A stretch of DNA of 55,073 nt from Sphingomonas sp. CCH10-B3 (GTDB taxonomy: Bacteria > Pseudomonadota > Alphaproteobacteria > Sphingomonadales > Sphingomonadaceae). Below are positions 13,034-47,499 of this stretch, one piece after another. The translations under genes were made by a program, and so were the position numbers. The notes beneath the pieces are model-generated. The model ran no database searches. It had not been told where the DNA came from and was given only the letters and a program-made list of their open reading frames with translations. How positions within the stretch are numbered: the stretch's first letter is position 1; each line of letters begins with the position of its first letter. The DNA lies in contig NZ_LSIJ01000046.1 in assembly GCF_001556185.1 (NCBI RefSeq), forward strand, positions 1-55,073, given 5' to 3'.

Positions 13034-14719
13034 TCAGAACGTCGGGAGCGAGGTGCAGAGGCCCGTGTTGCCGGTGCCGAGGTTCAGCGTGCTGCTGTTG
13101 CAGGTCCACTGAGTGTACCAGGTGTCGGCCGCGTTGCGGACGGCACCCGCGTAGGTGACGGCGTCGAAGAAGGCAGGCTGGCCGCCCAGCCCACCGGTGC
13201 CCGACGGGATGCCCGACGCGGCGTGGAGGTTGCTGGGGTTGAAGGCCGGAACCGCCGATTCGGTCGTGCCGTTGATGAACGTGCTGGTGAAGCTCGGCGT
13301 GTAGGTCGCGCTGTTGCCAGCGAAGCCCGCACCGAAGGCGTCCGACACCTGCTGATTGGTCACGCCGTTGACGCCGAGGAACGGAGCAGCACCGCACTGC
13401 ATCTGCACCGAACGGAACACGGGCGCGCCCAGTTCGTCGATTGCAGCGCTGACCGCCTGCTGGATCGTCTGCGGGCGGCTGATGCTCAGGCACGACGGCG
13501 AGTTGGGCGCGACAACGAAGCCGTTGAGCAGCGTGTAGTCAGTGCCGCCGCGCAGCAGAATGGCGGTACGACCAGACTGGTTGTTCACGCGGTGCAGGAA
13601 AGTGAAGTTCGACAGAATGACGTTCTGGCGCGGCGTGTTGCCGTCCACAGCGTTGTCCGAGTCCGCTTCGATGATCGTGTCGGTGCCGCGCGAATCGCTG
13701 CCGGCGCGCTGGGCGACCAGCACATACTGGAAGTTGCCCTTCAGGCCCGTGTCGGTGTCGAGGTTGTCGTCTTCGGCGCCGACCGAGATGAAGTAGCGCA
13801 GATTGACGCGACCACCGAAGAATTCGGCGCCGTCGTCCGAGCTGTTGAACGACATGATGTTGTTGAGGACCGTGCCGCTGCCGACGCCACCGGTGGTGAG
13901 CGACTGAAGCTCGTTGTTGCCCGACAGGATGAAGCCCGAATAGCGGATCTGGACGAAGCTCATCCGGCCGCTGCTTTCGGTGTTGTTCGCGCCGCCATAA
14001 ACGGCCGGGTCGATCGCGCCTTCGGTCTGGCGTTCGCACCCGGTGGTGCCGGGGGTGGCTGCCGATGCGGCGCAGTCAGTGATCTGGGCGCGGCCGAGCA
14101 GCACGACGCCGCCCCACTGGCCGGTCGACGCGTCGGTGTTCAGACCCTGAACGTTGTCGCGGCTGGTGAAGATGATCGGCTGGGTCGCCGTACCGACGGC
14201 CTGGATCGAGTTACCACGATTGACGGCGAGCCACGAAACACCGGTGCCAGCGAAAAGGATGACGCCGGGTTCGATCGTCAGGACGACGTTGGTAGTGCCG
14301 GTGGTGGTCGCACCGCGATCGGTGCCGACGTCGACGCGACCGTTCATCTGATACAGCACGCCGGCCAGACGCGGCAGCGTCACGTTCGCCGTGATGACCG
14401 ACGGCAGGGTGCAGACGCGGTACGTGCCGGTCGGGCCGCTGATCGTGCCGCCGTCGGTGAGCAGCGTGCCTGGGCTGGCGGTGTTCGAAATCGTCGGGCA
14501 ACCGGCAGCCGGGGTCACCAGGGCAACGGTCGGCGTCGGGGTGGGGGTCGGCGTCGGCGTGGGCGACGGCGCGGGGGTCGTGGTGTTGTTGGTGGTGTTG
14601 TTGTTGATCGTGACGTTGCCGCCGGTGCCCGGCGAAGCAATGTCGTTGGCACCGCAGCCGCTCAGCGCAACGAGCGAGGTTGTCGCAATGAGCATGCGAC
14701 GGAAGTTGGAATTCATCAT
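13034..14719 (-). CDS. Large surface-type lipoprotein with Pro-Thr linker, partner of the TonB receptor
   Basis: A 561-residue lipoprotein: MMNSNFRRMLIATTSLVALSG followed by the lipobox cysteine (LSGC). An Asn/Thr-rich tract and a (PT)n linker at about residues 50-65 precede a long Gly/Asn/Thr-rich domain with repeating strands (GVVLLGRAQI, IRYSGFILSGNNELQ, GFVVAPNS) that looks like a right-handed beta helix. It is upstream of and co-directional with the TonB receptor, and the type II secretion operon is close by. Family knowledge: in Caulobacter a phosphate-starvation lipoprotein (ElpS) encoded near such genes is released by type II secretion. I recall this from memory and have not aligned the two. 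No catalytic residues are recognised. Confidence 0.8.
   Translation of the reverse strand: MMNSNFRRMLIATTSLVALSGCGANDIASPGTGGNVTINNNTTNNTTTPAPSPTPTPTPTPTPTVALVTPAAGCPTISNTASPGTLLTDGGTISGPTGTYRVCTLPSVITANVTLPRLAGVLYQMNGRVDVGTDRGATTTGTTNVVLTIEPGVILFAGTGVSWLAVNRGNSIQAVGTATQPIIFTSRDNVQGLNTDASTGQWGGVVLLGRAQITDCAASAATPGTTGCERQTEGAIDPAVYGGANNTESSGRMSFVQIRYSGFILSGNNELQSLTTGGVGSGTVLNNIMSFNSSDDGAEFFGGRVNLRYFISVGAEDDNLDTDTGLKGNFQYVLVAQRAGSDSRGTDTIIEADSDNAVDGNTPRQNVILSNFTFLHRVNNQSGRTAILLRGGTDYTLLNGFVVAPNSPSCLSISRPQTIQQAVSAAIDELGAPVFRSVQMQCGAAPFLGVNGVTNQQVSDAFGAGFAGNSATYTPSFTSTFINGTTESAVPAFNPSNLHAASGIPSGTGGLGGQPAFFDAVTYAGAVRNAADTWYTQWTCNSSTLNLGTGNTGLCTSLPTF
14531..14573 (-). repeat. Short in-frame tandem repeat coding the Pro-Thr linker
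   Basis: A GC-rich 6-base-period tract (variants of GGCGTC and GGGGTC on the plus strand) encodes alternating Pro-Thr in the lipoprotein linker. Six-base units keep the frame, so linker length could vary between strains by slippage. Confidence 0.7.
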
Positions 14720-20404: not shown

Positions 20405-21634
20405 GTGGCCGACTTTGATTACATCGCCATCGACACCGGCGGGCGTGAGAAGCGCGGCGCGGTGAAGGCCGATACGATCGAACGCGCCCAAGCCGCACTC
20501 GACGCCCGCAAACTCTATGTCGTGCGGATCGATCCGGCGAGCACCGCCGACAAGCCCGCCGCTTCGCCGTCGATCATGGCGCAGCTCGGCCGCACCCCCC
20601 GAATGTCGACCAAGCACCTGACGTTGTTTACGCGCCAGCTGGCAACGCTCAACCGGGTCAGTCCGCTCGAAGAATCGCTGCGGACGATCGTCCGCCAGAC
20701 CGAGCAGCCGCATGTCCGCGACATTGTCGGGCGCGTCCATCTCGGCGTGGTCGAGGGAAGGCGACTCGCCGAGTCGATGGCGCGCGAACCCAAGAGTTTT
20801 CCGGCGCTTTATTGCGCGATGGTTTCGGCAGGCGAGAGCTCGGGCGCGCTGCCGACAATCCTCGAACGCTTGTCGGTGCTGCTCGAGCGGCAGGCAGAAA
20901 TTCGCGGCAAGATGATCACGACGCTGGCCTATCCCGCCGTGCTCGCGGTGGTGGCAATGGCCGTTGTCGCGGCCCTGATGATCTTCGTGGTGCCGCAGGT
21001 GGTCGAGCAGTTCGACACGGTTGGCCAGCAATTGCCGCTGCTGACGCGCATCGTCATCGCGCTGTCGGCATTCCTGGCGAGCTATTGGTGGGCGATCATC
21101 CTGTTCGCAATCGTCGCGGCATTGGGGTTCCGCCAGGCGCTGCGCGAGCCGCAGATCAAGCTCGCCTTCGACAGCTGGCTGCTGCGGCTGCCGCTGCTCG
21201 GGCGCTTGCTGCGCGATCTCCACGCTGCGCGGATGGCGCGGACGCTGTCGACGATGGTCGCGAGCCGCTTGCCGCTGCTCGAAGGCCTCGCGCTTACCTC
21301 GGGCACGATCCACAATGCGCGGCTGCGGCAGGCGTCGGACGAGATCACCGATTCGATCCGCCAGGGCGGCAGCCTGTCGGCGGCGATGCGCCGCTCGAAC
21401 GTGTTTCCGCCGCTGTTGACCTATCTGGCTGCGTCGGGCGAGGCTGCGGGGCGGCTCGACGAGATGTTGGAGCGCGCGGCCGATTATCTCGAACGTGAAT
21501 TCGACCGCTTTACCGCCACGGCTTTGTCGATGCTCGAACCCGCGATCATCATCATCATGGGCGGCATTGTGGCGACGATTGTGCTATCGATCCTGCTGCC
21601 GATCCTGCAGCTCAACACTTTGGCCGGGCAATGA
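20405..21634 (+). CDS. gspF: Type II secretion inner-membrane platform protein GspF
   Basis: Polytopic platform protein contacting GspE and GspL. The GTG at 20405, eight bases after gspE, gives 409 residues, the normal length, beginning VADFDYIAIDTGGREKRG. Two copies of the T2SSF domain are visible (LTLFTRQLATLNRVSPLEESLR... and ARMARTLSTMVASRLPLLEGL...), with membrane helices around VLAVVAMAVVAALMIFVVPQ, YWWAIILFAIVAALGF and, near the end, IIIIMGGIVATIVLSILLPI. Extending the frame upstream would run inside gspE, so this start is preferred. Confidence 0.96.
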   Translation: MADFDYIAIDTGGREKRGAVKADTIERAQAALDARKLYVVRIDPASTADKPAASPSIMAQLGRTPRMSTKHLTLFTRQLATLNRVSPLEESLRTIVRQTEQPHVRDIVGRVHLGVVEGRRLAESMAREPKSFPALYCAMVSAGESSGALPTILERLSVLLERQAEIRGKMITTLAYPAVLAVVAMAVVAALMIFVVPQVVEQFDTVGQQLPLLTRIVIALSAFLASYWWAIILFAIVAALGFRQALREPQIKLAFDSWLLRLPLLGRLLRDLHAARMARTLSTMVASRLPLLEGLALTSGTIHNARLRQASDEITDSIRQGGSLSAAMRRSNVFPPLLTYLAASGEAAGRLDEMLERAADYLEREFDRFTATALSMLEPAIIIIMGGIVATIVLSILLPILQLNTLAGQ

Positions 21635-21642
21635 GGAGTATC

Positions 21643-22104
21643 ATGGTACAGCGCCCCAATCCCAACTGCCGCCGAACGGGCCGGCGTTCCCGAGAACAGG
21701 GCTTTTCGCTCGTCGAACTGATGGTAGTGATCGTCATTCTCGGCTTGCTCGCGACCATCGTCGCGCTCAACGTCATCCCGCTCGGCGATCAGGGCAAGGT
21801 CCAGAAGGCGAAGTCGGACATCGCCACGATCGAGCAGGCGCTCGAAGTCTACAAGCTCCAGCAGTTTACCTATCCGACCACGTCGGACGGGTTGCAGGCT
21901 TTGGTGTCGCCCCCGGCGTCGCTGACCGATCCGTCGCGTTACCAGAAGGGCGGCTATATCAAGAAGCTGCCCAAGGACCCCTGGGGCCGCGACTATCTCT
22001 ATTCGTCGCCGGGCACCCACGGGCAGATCGATATCTGGAGCTATGGCGCCGATGGCCGCGAAGGGGGCGAGGGCGTCGATGCCGATATTGGCAGCTGGCA
22101 ATAA
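21643..22104 (+). CDS. gspG: Major pseudopilin GspG
   Basis: Main subunit of the periplasmic pseudopilus. The class III leader ends at EQG, with cleavage before FSLVELMVVIVILGLLATIV (Glu at +5). The mature part carries the calcium-site tail ...YGADGREGGEGVDADIGSW, typical of GspG. The ATG at 21643 has AGGAG 5 bases upstream; the ATG at 21631 overlapping the gspF stop is the alternative and would add four residues. Its leader RRSREQGF is a single unit of the motif that is repeated in gspH, gspI and gspJ. Confidence 0.96.
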   Translation: MVQRPNPNCRRTGRRSREQGFSLVELMVVIVILGLLATIVALNVIPLGDQGKVQKAKSDIATIEQALEVYKLQQFTYPTTSDGLQALVSPPASLTDPSRYQKGGYIKKLPKDPWGRDYLYSSPGTHGQIDIWSYGADGREGGEGVDADIGSWQ

Positions 22105-22627
22105 CGCGTCACGGCATCGCGGCGAGGGGGGCACGCCACTTCGGCGTTCCGCCGAACACGACTTTACGCCCCGTCGGCGTTCCGCCGAACACGGCTTCAC
22201 GCTGGTCGAGCTGATGATCGTCATCGCGTTGATCGGGCTGGTGTCGGCGGCAGTGGTGCTGTCGCTGCCCGATCCGCGCGGGCGGCTGCGCGACGATGCC
22301 GAACGCTTTGCCGCGCGGGTGCGTGCCGCGCATGATCTGGCGATCGTCGAGGGGCGGTCGGTCAGCGTGTGGGTCAGCGATGGCGGCTATGGCTTTGACC
22401 AGCGGGCGGCGGGCGCATGGACGCCGGTGAGCGAAAAGCCGTTCCAGGTGACGCGCTGGGGTGACGGCATCCGCCCCCAGATTACGGCGCCATCGGGGCG
22501 CGACCGCGTGATCTTTGATTCAACCGGGCTCGGCAGCACGCCGATGACGATCCGGCTCCAGCGCGGGCGCGACGCGACGACCACCGTCAAGATCGGCATC
22601 GACGGAGCGGTGGCGATCGATGGCTGA
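22079..22627 (+). CDS. gspH: Minor pseudopilin GspH with duplicated leader motif
   Basis: Minor pseudopilin. The recognisable processing site is AEHG with cleavage before FTLVELMIVIALIGLVSAA, with Glu at +5. The leader is unusually long because an 11-residue unit (RRSAEHDFTPR, then RRSAEHGFTLV) occurs twice. The ATG at 22079 overlaps gspG by 26 bases; an ATG at 22043 would lie further inside gspG. The remaining part (DDAERFAARVRAAHDLAIVEGRSV...) is the GspH fold. Length 182 residues from this start. Confidence 0.88.
   Translation: MPILAAGNNASRHRGEGGTPLRRSAEHDFTPRRRSAEHGFTLVELMIVIALIGLVSAAVVLSLPDPRGRLRDDAERFAARVRAAHDLAIVEGRSVSVWVSDGGYGFDQRAAGAWTPVSEKPFQVTRWGDGIRPQITAPSGRDRVIFDSTGLGSTPMTIRLQRGRDATTTVKIGIDGAVAIDG
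22142..22207 (+). repeat. Two 33-bp leader repeats in gspH
   Basis: Units at 22142-22174 and 22175-22207, both starting CGGCGTTCCGCCGAACACG, differ at only a few bases. They are in frame, encoding an 11-residue unit ending in the prepilin cleavage motif. Only the second copy has the Leu-Val-Glu that a real pseudopilin needs. Confidence 0.9.
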
Positions 22628-23084
22628 GCGCCGCCCCGCCGAACCCGGCTTCACGCCCTTTTGGCGTTCCGCCGTAGACGGCTTCACGCTAATCGAAATG
22701 ATGGTGGCGCTGGCAGTGTTCAGCCTTGCGGGGCTTGCCCTGATCCGGCTGGAAGGGGCGACGATTCGCAGCGCGGCGATCCTCGATAATACGCTGATGG
22801 CGCAGATCGTCGCGCGTAACGTCGCTGTTGAGGCGCTCACCGATCTACGCCCGCCGACGCGCGGGACGATTGCGGGCACCGAAACCAACGGCGGGCGGGT
22901 ATGGCGCTGGCAGCGGCTGGCGGCACCGATCGGTGATCAGGGCGCCATGCGGATCGACGTGACCGTCACAGATCCAGATGGCAGCGCCGCAGGGCGCCTC
23001 ACCGTGATCCGCCCGCCTGCGACGGCGCCCCGCAAGCCGCGCCTGCCCCCCGGGCAGCAGCCGCCACCGGGAGGGCGGACGTGA
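22620..23084 (+). CDS. gspI: Minor pseudopilin GspI with duplicated leader motif
   Basis: Minor pseudopilin of 154 residues starting at an ATG that overlaps gspH by 8 bases. The leader runs ERRPAEPGFTPFWRSAVDG, and cleavage is expected before FTLIEMMVALAVFSLAGLAL. The leader contains an earlier, degenerate copy of the same cleavage motif (EPGFTP), which lacks the +5 Glu and the hydrophobic stretch. The mature part NTLMAQIVARNVAVEAL...WRWQRL is typical of GspI, ending in a proline-rich tail (PRLPPGQQPPPGGRT in part). Confidence 0.9.
   Translation: MAERRPAEPGFTPFWRSAVDGFTLIEMMVALAVFSLAGLALIRLEGATIRSAAILDNTLMAQIVARNVAVEALTDLRPPTRGTIAGTETNGGRVWRWQRLAAPIGDQGAMRIDVTVTDPDGSAAGRLTVIRPPATAPRKPRLPPGQQPPPGGRT
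22629..22694 (+). repeat. Two 33-bp leader repeats in gspI
   Basis: Units at 22629-22661 (diverged) and 22662-22694. The core TTCCGCCG and GACGGCTTCACGCT of the second unit match those in gspH and gspJ, and the 33-base period keeps the frame. Confidence 0.8.
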
Positions 23085-23773
23085 CCCGTCGCGCCTCCGA
23101 ACACGGCTTCACGCCCGTTCGGCGTTCCGCCGAACACGGCTTCAAGTCTCTGCGGCGTTCCGCCGAAAACGGCTTCACGCTAGTCGAAGTCATGATCTCG
23201 CTGCTGATCTTCGGCCTGCTCGCGGCGGCCGGGGTTGCCGTGCTGTCGTTCAGCGTCCGCGCGCAGGGGGTCACTCAAGCGAAGTTCGACGACATCGCCG
23301 CCTTCAGCCGCCTCAACGCCATCCTCACTGCCGATCTTGCCCAGGCATTGCCGCGCGCCACCCGTAATCCGCAAGGGGGCCCGCAGCTGCCGTTTGAAGG
23401 CGGCGTGGGGGATCCGGTGCTGGCGGTGGTGCGCGGCGGCTGGACCAATCTCGACGAAGCGCCGCGGCCCGATGTGCAGAAGGTCGAATATCGGCTGCGC
23501 GGTGGTGCGATCGAGCGGGTTGCCTATCCCATGCTCGACGGTGCCGATCCACTGCCGCCTGCCGTCTTGCTCGGTGGCGTCGATCAGGTCGCGCTTCGCT
23601 TCCGCATCAATGGTGCTTGGAGTGATCGTTGGCAGTCGAAGCCCGAGGCGCCACTGCCCGAAGCGCTCGAAATGCAGATCGGCCGGCGCGACGGGCGTCG
23701 CTACCGGCTCGTGATGCTGGTCGGCACCGGCTATGCGCCGCCGCTACCCGAAGGACCGGGCAGTGGCCAATAG
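23081..23773 (+). CDS. gspJ: Minor pseudopilin GspJ with triplicated leader motif
   Basis: Minor pseudopilin of 230 residues from a GTG that overlaps the gspI stop (GTGA). Its leader carries three 11-residue units: RRASEHGFTPV, then RRSAEHGFKSL, then RRSAENGFTLV. The processing site is AENG before FTLVEVMISLLIFGLLAAA. The mature part (FDDIAAFSRLNAILTADLAQALPRA..., VEYRLRGGAIERV) fits GspJ, which caps the pseudopilus with GspI and GspK. Confidence 0.92.
   Translation: MTRRASEHGFTPVRRSAEHGFKSLRRSAENGFTLVEVMISLLIFGLLAAAGVAVLSFSVRAQGVTQAKFDDIAAFSRLNAILTADLAQALPRATRNPQGGPQLPFEGGVGDPVLAVVRGGWTNLDEAPRPDVQKVEYRLRGGAIERVAYPMLDGADPLPPAVLLGGVDQVALRFRINGAWSDRWQSKPEAPLPEALEMQIGRRDGRRYRLVMLVGTGYAPPLPEGPGSGQ
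23087..23185 (+). repeat. Three 33-bp leader repeats in gspJ
   Basis: Units at 23087-23119, 23120-23152 and 23153-23185; the last two begin with CGGCGTTCCGCCGAA. The same DNA unit occurs in gspH and gspI, so the sequence has spread between neighbouring genes, probably by recombination or slippage, since each copy remains in frame. Confidence 0.92.
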
Positions 23774-24752
23774 GACGCCCCCGCATGAACGCGGCGCCGC
23801 GCTGCTGACGGTGTTGCTGCTCGTTGCTGTGATCGCGGTGTTGGCCGGACATGCGCTGGAGCGGATGCGGCTGGCGACTCGCCTCGGCGCGAACAGCGTG
23901 GCGATTGATCAGGCGCGCGCCTTTGCGATGGCCGCTGAAACCGCGGCGATGGTGCGGATCAATTCGGTGCTCGCCCGCGATGCGGCGCGCGTGACGCTGC
24001 AAGGCGATTGGGCGGGCAAGCCCTATCCGCTGCCGGTGCCCGGCGGCATCGCCACTGCGACGGCGACCGATGGCGGCAATTGCTTCAACCTCAACGGCCT
24101 TGTCCAGCAGAGCGATGTCGACACATTGGTGACGCGGCCGGCGTCGGTCGACCAGTTCGGTCGGCTGATGCGCTTGATCGGCATCCCTGATCAGCAGTCG
24201 CGTGAGATTGCCGCCGCAGCCGCCGACTGGATCGACACCGACAATATCCGCCAGACCGATGGCGGCGAGGACTCCGATTATTCGGGCTTCATCCCGCGCT
24301 ATCTGCCAGCGAATGCGATGATGGCCGACCCCAGCGAATTGCGCGCCGTGAAAGGAATGAGCCCGGCGATCTATGCCAAGCTGCGGCCGTGGGTCTGTGC
24401 GCTGCCGGTCGCCAAGCCGACGCGGATCAACGTCAACACATTGCTGCCCGAACAGGCGCCATTGCTCGCCATGCTGCTGCCCGATACGCTCGATATCGGG
24501 CGGGCGCGTGCGGTTTTGCTTGAACGGCCGCCGCAGGGCTTTACCAGCACGGTTGCCTTCTGGCAGGGGGCGGCGCTGAAGGGGACGACGGCAGGCCCCG
24601 AAGTGCAGCAGCAGACGGCAGTAACCACGCAGTGGTTCGGCTTGAAGATCGACGTGGCATTGGGGGGCACGCAGTTGACGCAAACCGCGCTCATCGACGC
24701 GACCGAGCCGCCGGTTCGGCTGGTCTCGCGCGCGTGGAGCGATCCGTCGTGA
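23763..24752 (+). CDS. gspK: Minor pseudopilin GspK
   Basis: The largest minor pseudopilin, at the pseudopilus tip. The GTG at 23763 overlaps gspJ by 11 bases and gives 329 residues. The leader ends HERG, followed by AALLTVLLLVAVIAVLAG, without the +5 Glu, as is normal for GspK. The insert domain has AADWIDTDN (the calcium-binding and helical region), LRAVKGMSPAIYAKLRPWVCALP and NVNTLLPEQAPLLAML. Unlike gspH, gspI and gspJ, its leader has no tandem repeat. An ATG at 23733 is a possible longer start. Confidence 0.92.
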   Translation: MANRTPPHERGAALLTVLLLVAVIAVLAGHALERMRLATRLGANSVAIDQARAFAMAAETAAMVRINSVLARDAARVTLQGDWAGKPYPLPVPGGIATATATDGGNCFNLNGLVQQSDVDTLVTRPASVDQFGRLMRLIGIPDQQSREIAAAAADWIDTDNIRQTDGGEDSDYSGFIPRYLPANAMMADPSELRAVKGMSPAIYAKLRPWVCALPVAKPTRINVNTLLPEQAPLLAMLLPDTLDIGRARAVLLERPPQGFTSTVAFWQGAALKGTTAGPEVQQQTAVTTQWFGLKIDVALGGTQLTQTALIDATEPPVRLVSRAWSDPS

Positions 24753-25831
24753 TGGCGCGCGCGCTGTTCCTGCCGAGCTCGTCCGAAGCCTCGCACCGCT
24801 GGATCGCGATCGATGGCGACACCATTGTCGCGCGCGGGGAGGGGGTGCCGGAGGCTGACGATGTACCGCTGACGGTGATCGTGCCCGCCGAAGACGTAAC
24901 GCTGCACTGGGCCGACGTGCCGGCGCGATCGACCGCGCAAGCGGTGGCGGCGGCGCGACTGCTCGTCACCGATGCGAGTGCGACGCCCATCACCGACCTG
25001 CATGTCGCGGTCGGCGACGAAGGGACCGATGACAAACCGATTGGCGTCGTGGCGTCGCAGCGGATGCGCGACTGGCTGGCGGGCCTCGCCGAGCGAGGGC
25101 TCGACCCGCAGGCCATGATCCCGGCGCCAATGCTGTTGCCGCGCCCGACCGAAGGCTATGTCCGTGCCGATTTCGGCGGTGACGGGGTCGTGCGCGGCCC
25201 GGCGAGCGGCTTTGCCGACGAACCCGGCCTGACCAAGATCGTCACCGGCGGTGTCGCGCCCAGCGTGATCGATCGTGACGCGCTCGAAAAGGCCGTGGTC
25301 GCGGCAATCGCGCGACCCGCGCTCGATCTGCGCCAGGGTGCCTTTGCCCGGCGCGAAGCGATTTCGTTCGACTGGGGTGTGGCGCGTCGCGCCGGTTGGC
25401 TGGTTGCGGCGATCCTGCTGGTCACGCTTGCAATCGCGCTGGTCGAAATCGCGCGCTACAGCTTTGCCGCCGACGAACTCACCCGCAAGAGCGACCTGAT
25501 CGCGCGCGGCGGCTTGCCGCGTGGCGAGACGGTCAACGATGCCGGCCGCCAGCTCGATGCCCGGCTCGTGCGGCTGCGCGGCGGCGGGATCGGTTTCAGC
25601 GCAACAGCGGCAATCGTTTTCGACGCAATCCGCAGTGTCCCGGGCAGCGAACTTCGCGCGCTGTCGTTCGATGCGGCAGGCAAGATGCGCGCATCGCTGG
25701 TGACGCAGAATGAGGGGCAAGTGACCGATCTGATCAACCGCATCCGCGCGCGCGGGCTGGTGGTGACGCCGAGCACTTTTTCGGGTGGCAATGGTCGCGT
25801 GTCGGGTGACCTGACGGTGACCCCGCGATGA
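24752..25831 (+). CDS. gspL: Type II secretion protein GspL
   Basis: Inner-membrane protein that anchors GspE. The ATG at 24752 overlaps the gspK stop by one base and yields 359 residues. The N-terminal cytoplasmic actin-like domain (RWIAIDGDTIVARGEGVPEADD...VIVPAEDVTLHWADVP) is followed by one membrane helix (AGWLVAAILLVTLAIALVEI, near residue 212) and a small periplasmic ferredoxin-like domain (IRSVPGSELRALSFDAAGKM). It is slightly shorter than enterobacterial GspL. Confidence 0.9.
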   Translation: MARALFLPSSSEASHRWIAIDGDTIVARGEGVPEADDVPLTVIVPAEDVTLHWADVPARSTAQAVAAARLLVTDASATPITDLHVAVGDEGTDDKPIGVVASQRMRDWLAGLAERGLDPQAMIPAPMLLPRPTEGYVRADFGGDGVVRGPASGFADEPGLTKIVTGGVAPSVIDRDALEKAVVAAIARPALDLRQGAFARREAISFDWGVARRAGWLVAAILLVTLAIALVEIARYSFAADELTRKSDLIARGGLPRGETVNDAGRQLDARLVRLRGGGIGFSATAAIVFDAIRSVPGSELRALSFDAAGKMRASLVTQNEGQVTDLINRIRARGLVVTPSTFSGGNGRVSGDLTVTPR

Positions 25832-46429: not shown

Positions 46430-47499
46430 CGCTGCCGCTGCTCGCGACGCCGCTCGGCCTTCGCATGGCCGATTTGGGCGACCCGCGCGAGTGTGGGCAG
46501 ATCGATGATTTCGTGCGCGCTCATTCTGGGGCGACTCCCTTTCACCTGACGGCATGGCAGCGCGCGGTCGCGATCGGCTGCGGCCAGCGCGCGCATTGCC
46601 TGATCGCCGAGCGCGCGAATGGCGCAATCGCTGGCATCCTGCCGCTGACCGAAATTCGCTCGATGCTGTTCGGGCGCGCGCTGGTGTCTTCGGGCTTTGG
46701 GGTCGGCGGAGGTATTCTTGCCGACACCGACGACGCGATTGCGCCGCTTGCCCGAGCGGGTTGGTCGCTCGCGCAAAAGCTTGGCTGCCCGACGATGGAA
46801 ATGCGCGGCGGGCCGCATCCGGGGGACGACTGGCAGGTCGACGACACCACCTATCTCAATTTCGCGCGGCCGCTGGCTGCCGACGACGAGGCAGAGCTTG
46901 CCGCCATCCCGCGCAAGCACCGCGCGGAGGTGCGCAAGGGGCTCGCTGCCGACCTCGAAGTCGTGTTCGCGCGCGACGACCGGGCACAGTCGCAGCACTT
47001 CGCCGTCTATGCCGAATCGGTCCGAAATCTGGGTACGCCTGTTTTTCCACGGAAATTGTTTCGTGAAGCGCTCATTCATTTTGGCGCAGACTCTGATATA
47101 GCCGTCGTGCTGCAGCAGGGGGTGCCGGTGGCAAGCGTCTTAACGCTCTATTTTGGCGGAACGGCCTATCCCTATTGGGGCGGGGGCACCTTTGCCGCGC
47201 GTGCGCTGCGCGCAAATGAGCGGATGTATTTCGCGCTGATGAGCCATGCCCGCGCGCGCGGTTGCACGCGGTTCGACTTTGGCCGGTCGAAAACCGGCAC
47301 TGGCCCTGCCGCCTACAAACATCACTGGGGTTTTGAGGGCGTGCCGCTGCGCTATTTCAAGCGCAGCGCAGACGGACAGGTCGCGCGCGACGTCAATCCG
47401 CTCAATCCGCGCTACCAGGCCAAGATCGCGCGCTGGAAAAAGCTGCCATTGTGGATCGCGAACCGCGCGGGACCGATGATCGCTGCCGGGCTCGGCTGA
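46426..47499 (+). CDS. XrtA-locus FemAB-like acyltransferase
   Basis: A 357-residue protein with the GNAT-like fold of peptidoglycan FemAB enzymes. It shows FHLTAWQRAVAIGCGQRAH, the YLNFARPL strand, RKHRAEVRKGLAADLEV, ALMSHARARGCTRFDFGRSK and GPAAYKHHWGFEGVPLRY. Such proteins in XrtA loci are thought to modify a polysaccharide or peptide; the substrate is unknown. It starts at an ATG overlapping the deacetylase stop. Confidence 0.89.
   Translation: MTLPLLATPLGLRMADLGDPRECGQIDDFVRAHSGATPFHLTAWQRAVAIGCGQRAHCLIAERANGAIAGILPLTEIRSMLFGRALVSSGFGVGGGILADTDDAIAPLARAGWSLAQKLGCPTMEMRGGPHPGDDWQVDDTTYLNFARPLAADDEAELAAIPRKHRAEVRKGLAADLEVVFARDDRAQSQHFAVYAESVRNLGTPVFPRKLFREALIHFGADSDIAVVLQQGVPVASVLTLYFGGTAYPYWGGGTFAARALRANERMYFALMSHARARGCTRFDFGRSKTGTGPAAYKHHWGFEGVPLRYFKRSADGQVARDVNPLNPRYQAKIARWKKLPLWIANRAGPMIAAGLG

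Follow-up and report, generated by a model that had tools for sequence, protein, structure and literature searches.

A 33-bp repeat unit in the pseudopilin leaders of sphingomonad type II secretion operons and its probable movement between paralogous genes

The pseudopilin genes of a type II secretion operon in Sphingomonas sp. CCH10-B3 carry 33-bp units, repeated in tandem, in the leaders that precede their prepilin sites. Based on comparison with related operons, we propose a minisatellite confined to leaders, which passes from one paralogous gene to another by short-tract copying, expands in tandem and is tolerated as the leader is removed; we give this reading a probability of roughly 0.6. 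The aligned sequences show confinement to the leaders in the genomes searched, a fixed register and frame, insertion beside unrelated native leaders, changes just downstream of the insertion, fast turnover and a frozen core.

The window, meaning the whole stretch of DNA analysed, is the 55,073-nt contig NZ_LSIJ01000046.1. ORF reading and domain profiles place gspG, gspH, gspI, gspJ and gspK consecutively in it (Table 1). All five products score above the Pfam cut-off, with N_methyl plus T2SSG, GspH, T2SSI and T2SSJ among the carriers of the unit. The NCBIfam profiles for GspG, GspI, GspJ and GspK are also above cut-off, while the one for GspH falls short (76.4, with the cut-off at 80). The carriers combine the prepilin N-terminal motif with the family domain, as type II secretion pseudopilins do. 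Both candidate starts of gspH (window 22043-22104) overlap the end of gspG, and the resulting leader would be unusually long.

The units lie in frame and in register with the prepilin Gly-Phe, two in gspH, two in gspI and three in gspJ. The translated leaders read ...TPLRRSAEHDF-TPRRRSAEHGF-TLVE in gspH, MAERRPAEPGF-TPFWRSAVDGF-TLIE in gspI and VTRRASEHGF-TPVRRSAEHGF-KSLRRSAENGF-TLVE in gspJ. The gspG leader has one diverged unit (RSREQGF), and neither window translation nor the core pattern search revealed a unit in gspK. Tandem Repeats Finder reported period 33 at 22132-22202 (score 114) and 23097-23180 (score 126), and the repeat alignment puts the window copies in register. Sequence, translation and repeat detection therefore agree with the sequence-only reading, which had counted these units, a single related one in gspG and none in gspK. 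That reading had also described 11-residue units all ending in the cleavage motif. The register and frame hold, but the first gspH copy ends in Asp-Phe. Because of this ending it is no Gly-Phe decoy, and the idea that extra copies act as decoy sites is weak in the window. The same DNA had been seen in all three genes, which fits the added units; the first copies of gspI (RPAEPGF) and gspJ (RASEHGF) look more like their own genes' leaders than like the common unit.

Table 1. Genes and 33-bp leader units of the gsp operon in the window
Feature	Position	Strand	Remarks and basis
gspG, major pseudopilin	21643..22104	+	start ATG 21643 or 21631; ORF, Pfam, NCBIfam
gspH, minor pseudopilin	22079..22627	+	start ATG 22079 or 22043; Pfam, NCBIfam below cut-off
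gspI, minor pseudopilin	22620..23084	+	ORF, Pfam, NCBIfam
gspJ, minor pseudopilin	23081..23773	+	GTG start; ORF, Pfam, NCBIfam
gspK, unit-free	23763..24752	+	ORF, Pfam, NCBIfam, core pattern search
gspG single diverged unit	21673..21705	+	ends at mature Gly-Phe (GGC TTT)
gspH upstream unit TPLRRSAEHDF	22133..22165	+	Gly-Phe lost to Asp-Phe
gspH terminal unit TPRRRSAEHGF	22166..22198	+	end is the prepilin site
gspI first unit MAERRPAEPGF	22620..22652	+	begins at gspI ATG; probably native leader (comparison with L001)
gspI terminal unit TPFWRSAVDGF	22653..22685	+	sequence and translation
gspJ first unit VTRRASEHGF	23078..23110	+	overlaps GTG start; probably native leader (present alone in P0001, 96% identity)
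gspJ middle unit TPVRRSAEHGF	23111..23143	+	core is the exact consensus
gspJ terminal unit KSLRRSAENGF	23144..23176	+	end is the prepilin site

A 14-nt piece of the core, GGCGTTCCGCCGAA, has six matches in the window at up to 2 mismatches, five of them in these leaders with 0-1 mismatch and the sixth at position 47152 with 2 mismatches. This count alone is modest evidence, since 2 of 100 shuffles also reached six matches; the strong evidence within the window is the tandem register rather than the 14-mer count. At 14528-14618 of the window, Tandem Repeats Finder found densely packed short tandem repeats in overlapping rows, with units such as GTCGGC and GTGGTGTTGTTG.

Searches of related genomes indicate that the unit is not a genome-wide repeat and is confined to gsp leaders in the genomes searched. 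All 29 core matches in eight whole genomes, spread over six of them, fall inside the gsp operon by coordinates. A contig scan for GspG relatives gave 22 loci, 15 of them titled Sphingomonas. The genus scan covered the 295 genomes of the genus of Sphingomonas sp. ERG5 (G005, the genome of locus L012), allowing up to two mismatches to the core. It found matches in 87 genomes and none in 208. Fetched loci confirmed 78 of the 87 in gsp leaders and five had off-target matches only, while the remaining four (G135, G204, G215 and G237) had off-target-looking matches outside the nine that were read. Each of these nine is single, has 2 mismatches and lies away from prepilin motifs, and two of them are one stretch in two genomes. 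The reversed pattern produced 16 matches in the same 295 genomes, and the off-target level (9 read plus 4 unread) is no higher. L152, L153, L155-L157 and L159-L161 represent off-target matches with no parsed gspG. With at most one mismatch, the family scan found matches in 29 of 397 genomes including G005, and 19 of the other 28 were fetched and read. In the class scan of 142 genomes, matches occurred only in G005 and in one other genome, in the latter away from any prepilin.

A protein search with GspJ returned 909 relatives, and the N-termini of the best 120 were read. Of these best 120, 71 have a Gly-Phe placed precisely 11 residues ahead of the prepilin site, in a sample chosen by protein rather than DNA and weighted toward the nearest relatives of the window. 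The closest of them, P0001 (96% identity), has the first leader segment of the window gene and neither added unit. One relative, P0065, carries three upstream copies of the unit DNA in a different reading frame (VPPNTAS), the sole case among the best 120. The record titled Arthrobacter sp. TPD3018 (L018) has a gsp locus nearly equal to that of Sphingomonas aquatilis (L019) and is probably misnamed. Other repeat-like stretches also occur in open frames upstream of the pseudopilin sites of relatives, such as HPRESGDP, VIPAQAGIH, RHPGLVPGS and SVRTERSRS (L052, L060, L074, L077, L078, L177, L193, L200-L204, L210 and L224-L227). Such stretches resemble dispersed proteobacterial repeats. Repeats may land in pseudopilin leaders quite generally, or the actual starts may be located further downstream.

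The leader survey comprised 546 pseudopilin leaders from 140 loci, mostly picked through core match: 102 loci were taken by core match or as GspG relatives and 38 came from genomes with no match. GspG was present in 77 of 80 no-match genomes; 40 were fetched, mostly those with the closest GspG, and L230 and L231 (distant GspG type) were excluded to leave 38. Removed before counting were L018, L122 and L135 (duplicates of other records) and L173 (a second contig of G433). Also omitted were L015, L124, L136, L149 and L150 (short, truncated or partial) and L186 (unparsed). A GGNTTY upstream of the mature Gly-Phe, scored without use of the core, lies at -33 in 151 leaders, at -66 in 69, at -99 in 25 and at -132 in 8, and at any other offset from 6 to 159 in at most 7 of the 546. 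At least one extra unit is carried by 156 leaders in 95 loci, and 390 leaders have none. Arrays are found in two or more genes at 44 loci and in three or more at 14, with a step of 36 bp instead of 33 in four loci. In the 140 gsp loci, every one of the 356 core matches found with up to 3 mismatches lies upstream of a prepilin motif and in frame. Glu occupies +5 in 8 of 208 distinct spacers, a raw count that bears on selection against a decoy signal. Compared with the mature start TLVE, spacers are identical at 4.59 of 12 positions versus 3.29 for shuffled codons, and at 2.53 of 9 versus 2.14 when the Thr codon is left out, both above all 500 shuffles. The spacer may have arisen by copying of the mature start and later decay, which we take as a lead rather than an established point.

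Comparison of array-bearing ("filled") and unit-free ("empty") leaders indicates that the unit was inserted rather than merely duplicated in place. The added units have one common core, CGTTCCGCCGAAMACGGCTTC, and the first Gly-Phe in the arrays is often preceded by sequence that resembles a leader native to the gene (HRREE, KRPAN or MRAER, for instance). Differences from the core at 5 or more of 15 nt are seen in 87 of the 156 first sites, versus 3 of 260 added units. Between gspG of L203 and L095 there is a clean 33-bp insertion with both flanks near identical, and three changes fall within 15 nt after the site, with none in the remainder of the 90 nt shown. In L224 versus L146, the local GGCTTT is common to both and the added unit ends in GGCTTC. 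Filled genes and their nearest empty relatives (45 pairs) differ at 0.140 over the first 18 nt past the site and at 0.064 further on, compared with 0.077 and 0.058 in empty/empty pairs (199) and 0.060 and 0.059 in filled/filled pairs (48). The excess change after the site in filled/empty pairs was reached by 0 of 10000 permutations, although the pairs have partners in common. ACC encodes the Thr that follows the site in 3 of 156 filled genes, versus 152 of 390 empty ones. GGCTTC(ACG) flanks the insertions on both sides, but the added units carry their own version of it. Compared with transposable elements, the 33-bp unit is too small to contain a gene. A phage or plasmid source for the 121-bp gspJ stretch was considered and rejected, with no phage match and three weak matches in a plasmid collection (E 0.3), all confined to the prepilin end.

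The core of the unit is kept at synonymous sites against the codon preference of the operon. In 102 pairs of adjacent added units, the RSAEH codons differ at 5.6% per site and the spacer at 22.3%, a ratio of 3.98 (bootstrap 2.90-5.67), with core conservation inflated by the picking of loci through core match. The codons CGT, TCC, GCC, GAA and CAC account for 87, 96, 98, 92 and 100% (rounded) of their residues in the added units, and for 9, 22, 34, 37 and 43% (rounded) elsewhere in those operons. Counted over identical-residue codons in both cases, the core differs at 0.086 between loci whose gspG differs at 0.42. The core difference is 0.028 at a gspG synonymous distance of 0.1-0.2 (55 unit pairs), then about 0.08 and flat beyond 0.2, and over that range the 12-nt spacers drift, their difference climbing from 0.20 to about 0.5. 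Internal units are about as conserved as terminal ones. In the no-match loci, a site at -33 occurs in only 6 of 149 leaders, with 3 to 8 core mismatches; therefore no large class of diverged arrays appears to have been missed in this sample, which is biased to close GspG relatives. Neutral copying alone would not account for the frozen core, nor would peptide selection alone account for its silent sites. The core may be held by selection for being copied or by a role of the DNA or RNA, and we keep both readings. A variant, GCCCAACAGGGCTTC (AQQGF), stands in place of GCCGAACACGGCTTC in L011, L019, L184, L208, L224 and L227, with both sides of a possible base pair changed.

Sharing between genes of one genome was found at the level of spacers. 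The closest cross-gene spacers within a genome differ at 3.92 of 12 positions versus 5.43 after permutation of the genomes (none of 1000 permutations came as low), and an identical spacer occurs in 7 of 80 gene pairs versus a permutation mean of 1.85 (7 reached in 4 of 1000). In L185, gspH and gspJ have two whole units in common plus much of the preceding stretch. Judged by the tract that follows the site, filled genes are not clearly nearer than empty ones to another gene of their own genome, and this tract names no donor. In several genomes there is just one matching unit, so that no intragenomic donor is visible in them now. Exact 33-mers are seldom common to different loci (11 of 191), and arrays inside one gene are often homogeneous. 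The suggestion of the sequence-only reading that the unit may be a spreading sequence, tolerated in a leader that is cut off, agrees well with the common core of the added units, the clean 33-bp insertions between sisters, the likeness of spacers within genomes and the case of L185. It had named independent origin of each leader without common nucleotide units as a finding that would speak against it, and this is not what the comparison gave. Its alternative, a tuning of processing and translation, gains no direct support, as folding of the window leaders does not exceed that of synonymous versions, although an idealised unit does exceed it. The retention of the core at synonymous positions had not been anticipated in that reading.

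The turnover of the unit is fast. On a tree of 128 loci built from mature proteins, the minimum numbers of presence changes are 24, 25, 16 and 22 for gspG, gspH, gspI and gspJ, with 28, 45, 29 and 38 presences, against 25.8, 37.1, 26.4 and 32.9 changes under shuffled labels. Presence therefore appears partly inherited in gspH, gspI and gspJ and near random in gspG. Copy number differs in some gene in 26 of 39 sister pairs, and L105 and L106 are one copy apart with near identical flanks. With a fixed head-to-tail period and a copy number that varies between close relatives, the arrays classify as minisatellites (VNTR). The two G433 contigs, L172 and L173, are identical over 1380 nt between arrays and hold 4 versus at least 7 units in gspG and 9 versus 5 exact units in gspJ, which may be polymorphism or an assembly artefact.

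We propose the following course for the unit. The module would be 33 bp long and consist of a freely varying spacer and a conserved core; the core, about 21 nt in length, ends in GGCTTC, usually then ACG. Its target would be the Gly-Phe/Thr junction in gspG, gspH, gspI or gspJ, and its probable template another pseudopilin leader that already bears the module. The likeliest route of copying is short-tract gene conversion or template switching through the common GGCTTCAC. After insertion, slippage or unequal exchange would let the array grow and shrink in tandem, with frequent loss. As predicted from the family, the prepilin peptidase would cut at the last Gly-Phe adjoining the hydrophobic helix and discard the units. 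Removal after the last Gly is expected from the activity of this enzyme as described in the available text of PMC10191384, and the copies would be tolerated because the leader is removed.

The frozen core invites two further readings at the nucleotide level. The unit might be a site-restricted selfish replicator without a transposase, whose core promotes its own copying into prepilin Gly-Phe junctions while the host tolerates copies in a discarded peptide; the core would therefore be held by nucleotide-level selection for copying. We regard this as possible and advance it tentatively. It is rather doubtful, though conceivable, that the core is instead a DNA or RNA element, such as a binding site, a hairpin or a translation control, placed in four cistrons and spread and conserved by its function. 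Its retention at synonymous sites against codon usage, flat with distance, would fit such a signal, and one second-stem pair covaries among the 260 added units (G-C in 248, C-G in 6, G-T in 3, non-standard in 3), with the C-G form found in 6 loci. None of 500 synonymous versions folds as well as the idealised unit with its GTTCGG flank (z -2.5), and the 33-bp unit reaches z -1.8, whereas the 21-nt core alone gives z -1.0 and the window leaders fold no better than their synonymous versions (gspJ z 0.78, gspH z 0.03). Moreover, the outer pairs of the first stem pair no more often than column make-up predicts, the loop positions are likewise far from codon usage, and Rfam gave no match at the gathering threshold in window 21000-24800. 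A signal needed for function also sits poorly with its unstable presence and with the 208 genus genomes that have no match. As the folding and covariation results are mixed and Rfam has no match, an RNA hairpin was not adopted as the main cause.

Selection on the peptide, by which a positively charged RRSAEHG leader suits the prepilin peptidase or targeting and extra copies help processing, would agree with the units remaining in frame, with arginine ending the spacer more often than any other residue (128 of 208) and with the added unit taking the cleavage-proximal position. It is unlikely, however, given that synonymous sites are held against codon preference, that conservation is about equal in terminal units and in internal ones away from the cleavage site, and that most leaders have no extra unit. 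We consider it very improbable that tandem duplication of each gene's own leader, with no exchange between genes, was the only process. The homogeneous arrays and the rarity of exact 33-mers common between loci are in its favour, but the added units often bear no relation to the first site, they stand beside native leaders that sister genomes retain without units, and gspH and gspJ of L185 have units in common. The empty/filled pairs already contradict it as the sole process, and it may be right for later expansion. The unit is also short, partly palindromic, in frame and present in several genes, and other repeat-like stretches lie in the pseudopilin leaders of some relatives, so a dispersed mobile repeat of the REP, MITE or Rickettsia palindromic element type could sit in these genes by chance. 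Copies at many genomic places were not found in the genomes searched, where the off-target matches read were single, with 2 mismatches, and not above the reversed-pattern control; the one further match among 142 class genomes is not at a prepilin. A dispersed element is thereby all but ruled out for these genomes, and we consider it extremely improbable.

Minisatellites (VNTR) and gene conversion between paralogues are characterised by period-locked tandem copies, rapid change in copy number and sharing between paralogues. The sphingomonad unit likewise has a locked period, rapid copy-number change and paralogue sharing; unlike minisatellites, its core is held at synonymous positions while the spacer drifts, and it is inserted beside an unrelated native leader. 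Rickettsia palindromic elements (RPE) and PARCELs are the nearest known kinds found. RPEs are short in-frame repeats within protein-coding genes, viewed as selfish DNA in the available text of PMC10969869. The sphingomonad unit is similarly short and held in frame inside coding genes, whereas RPEs are about 150 bp long and occupy many unrelated genes; the sphingomonad unit is 33 bp, tandem and limited to one site type in at most four genes of one operon. PARCELs, in the part of PMC2996958 available, are tandem coding repeats of variable number with DNA dyad symmetry and shuffling within genomes, all of which the sphingomonad unit resembles. Their motif has 25 residues and lies in ORFs without assigned function in distant clades, whereas the present unit has 11 residues and belongs to the cleaved-off leader of one defined family of proteins, in one bacterial family in the searches made. 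Class III signal peptides with long leaders, as in T4b pilins and S. sanguinis pilins, are of variable length, cytoplasmic, end in Gly/Ala and are cut by the prepilin peptidase, as given in the available text of PMC10191384. By analogy, the variable-length pseudopilin leaders are predicted to be cleaved by the prepilin peptidase; unlike T4b and S. sanguinis leaders, they repeat the cleavage motif in tandem, a feature that this text does not mention. No description of pseudopilin-leader repeats in Sphingomonas or of the peptide string was found in open-licence papers.

The gsp leaders of sphingomonads thus offer a natural system in which single events of short DNA copying between paralogous genes can be followed, since close relatives include both empty and filled sites. 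The large repeated insertions carried by these prepilin leaders bear on how the prepilin peptidase chooses one site among several. In addition, the frozen core raises the testable question of what maintains 21 nt against codon preference in a peptide that is expected to be discarded.
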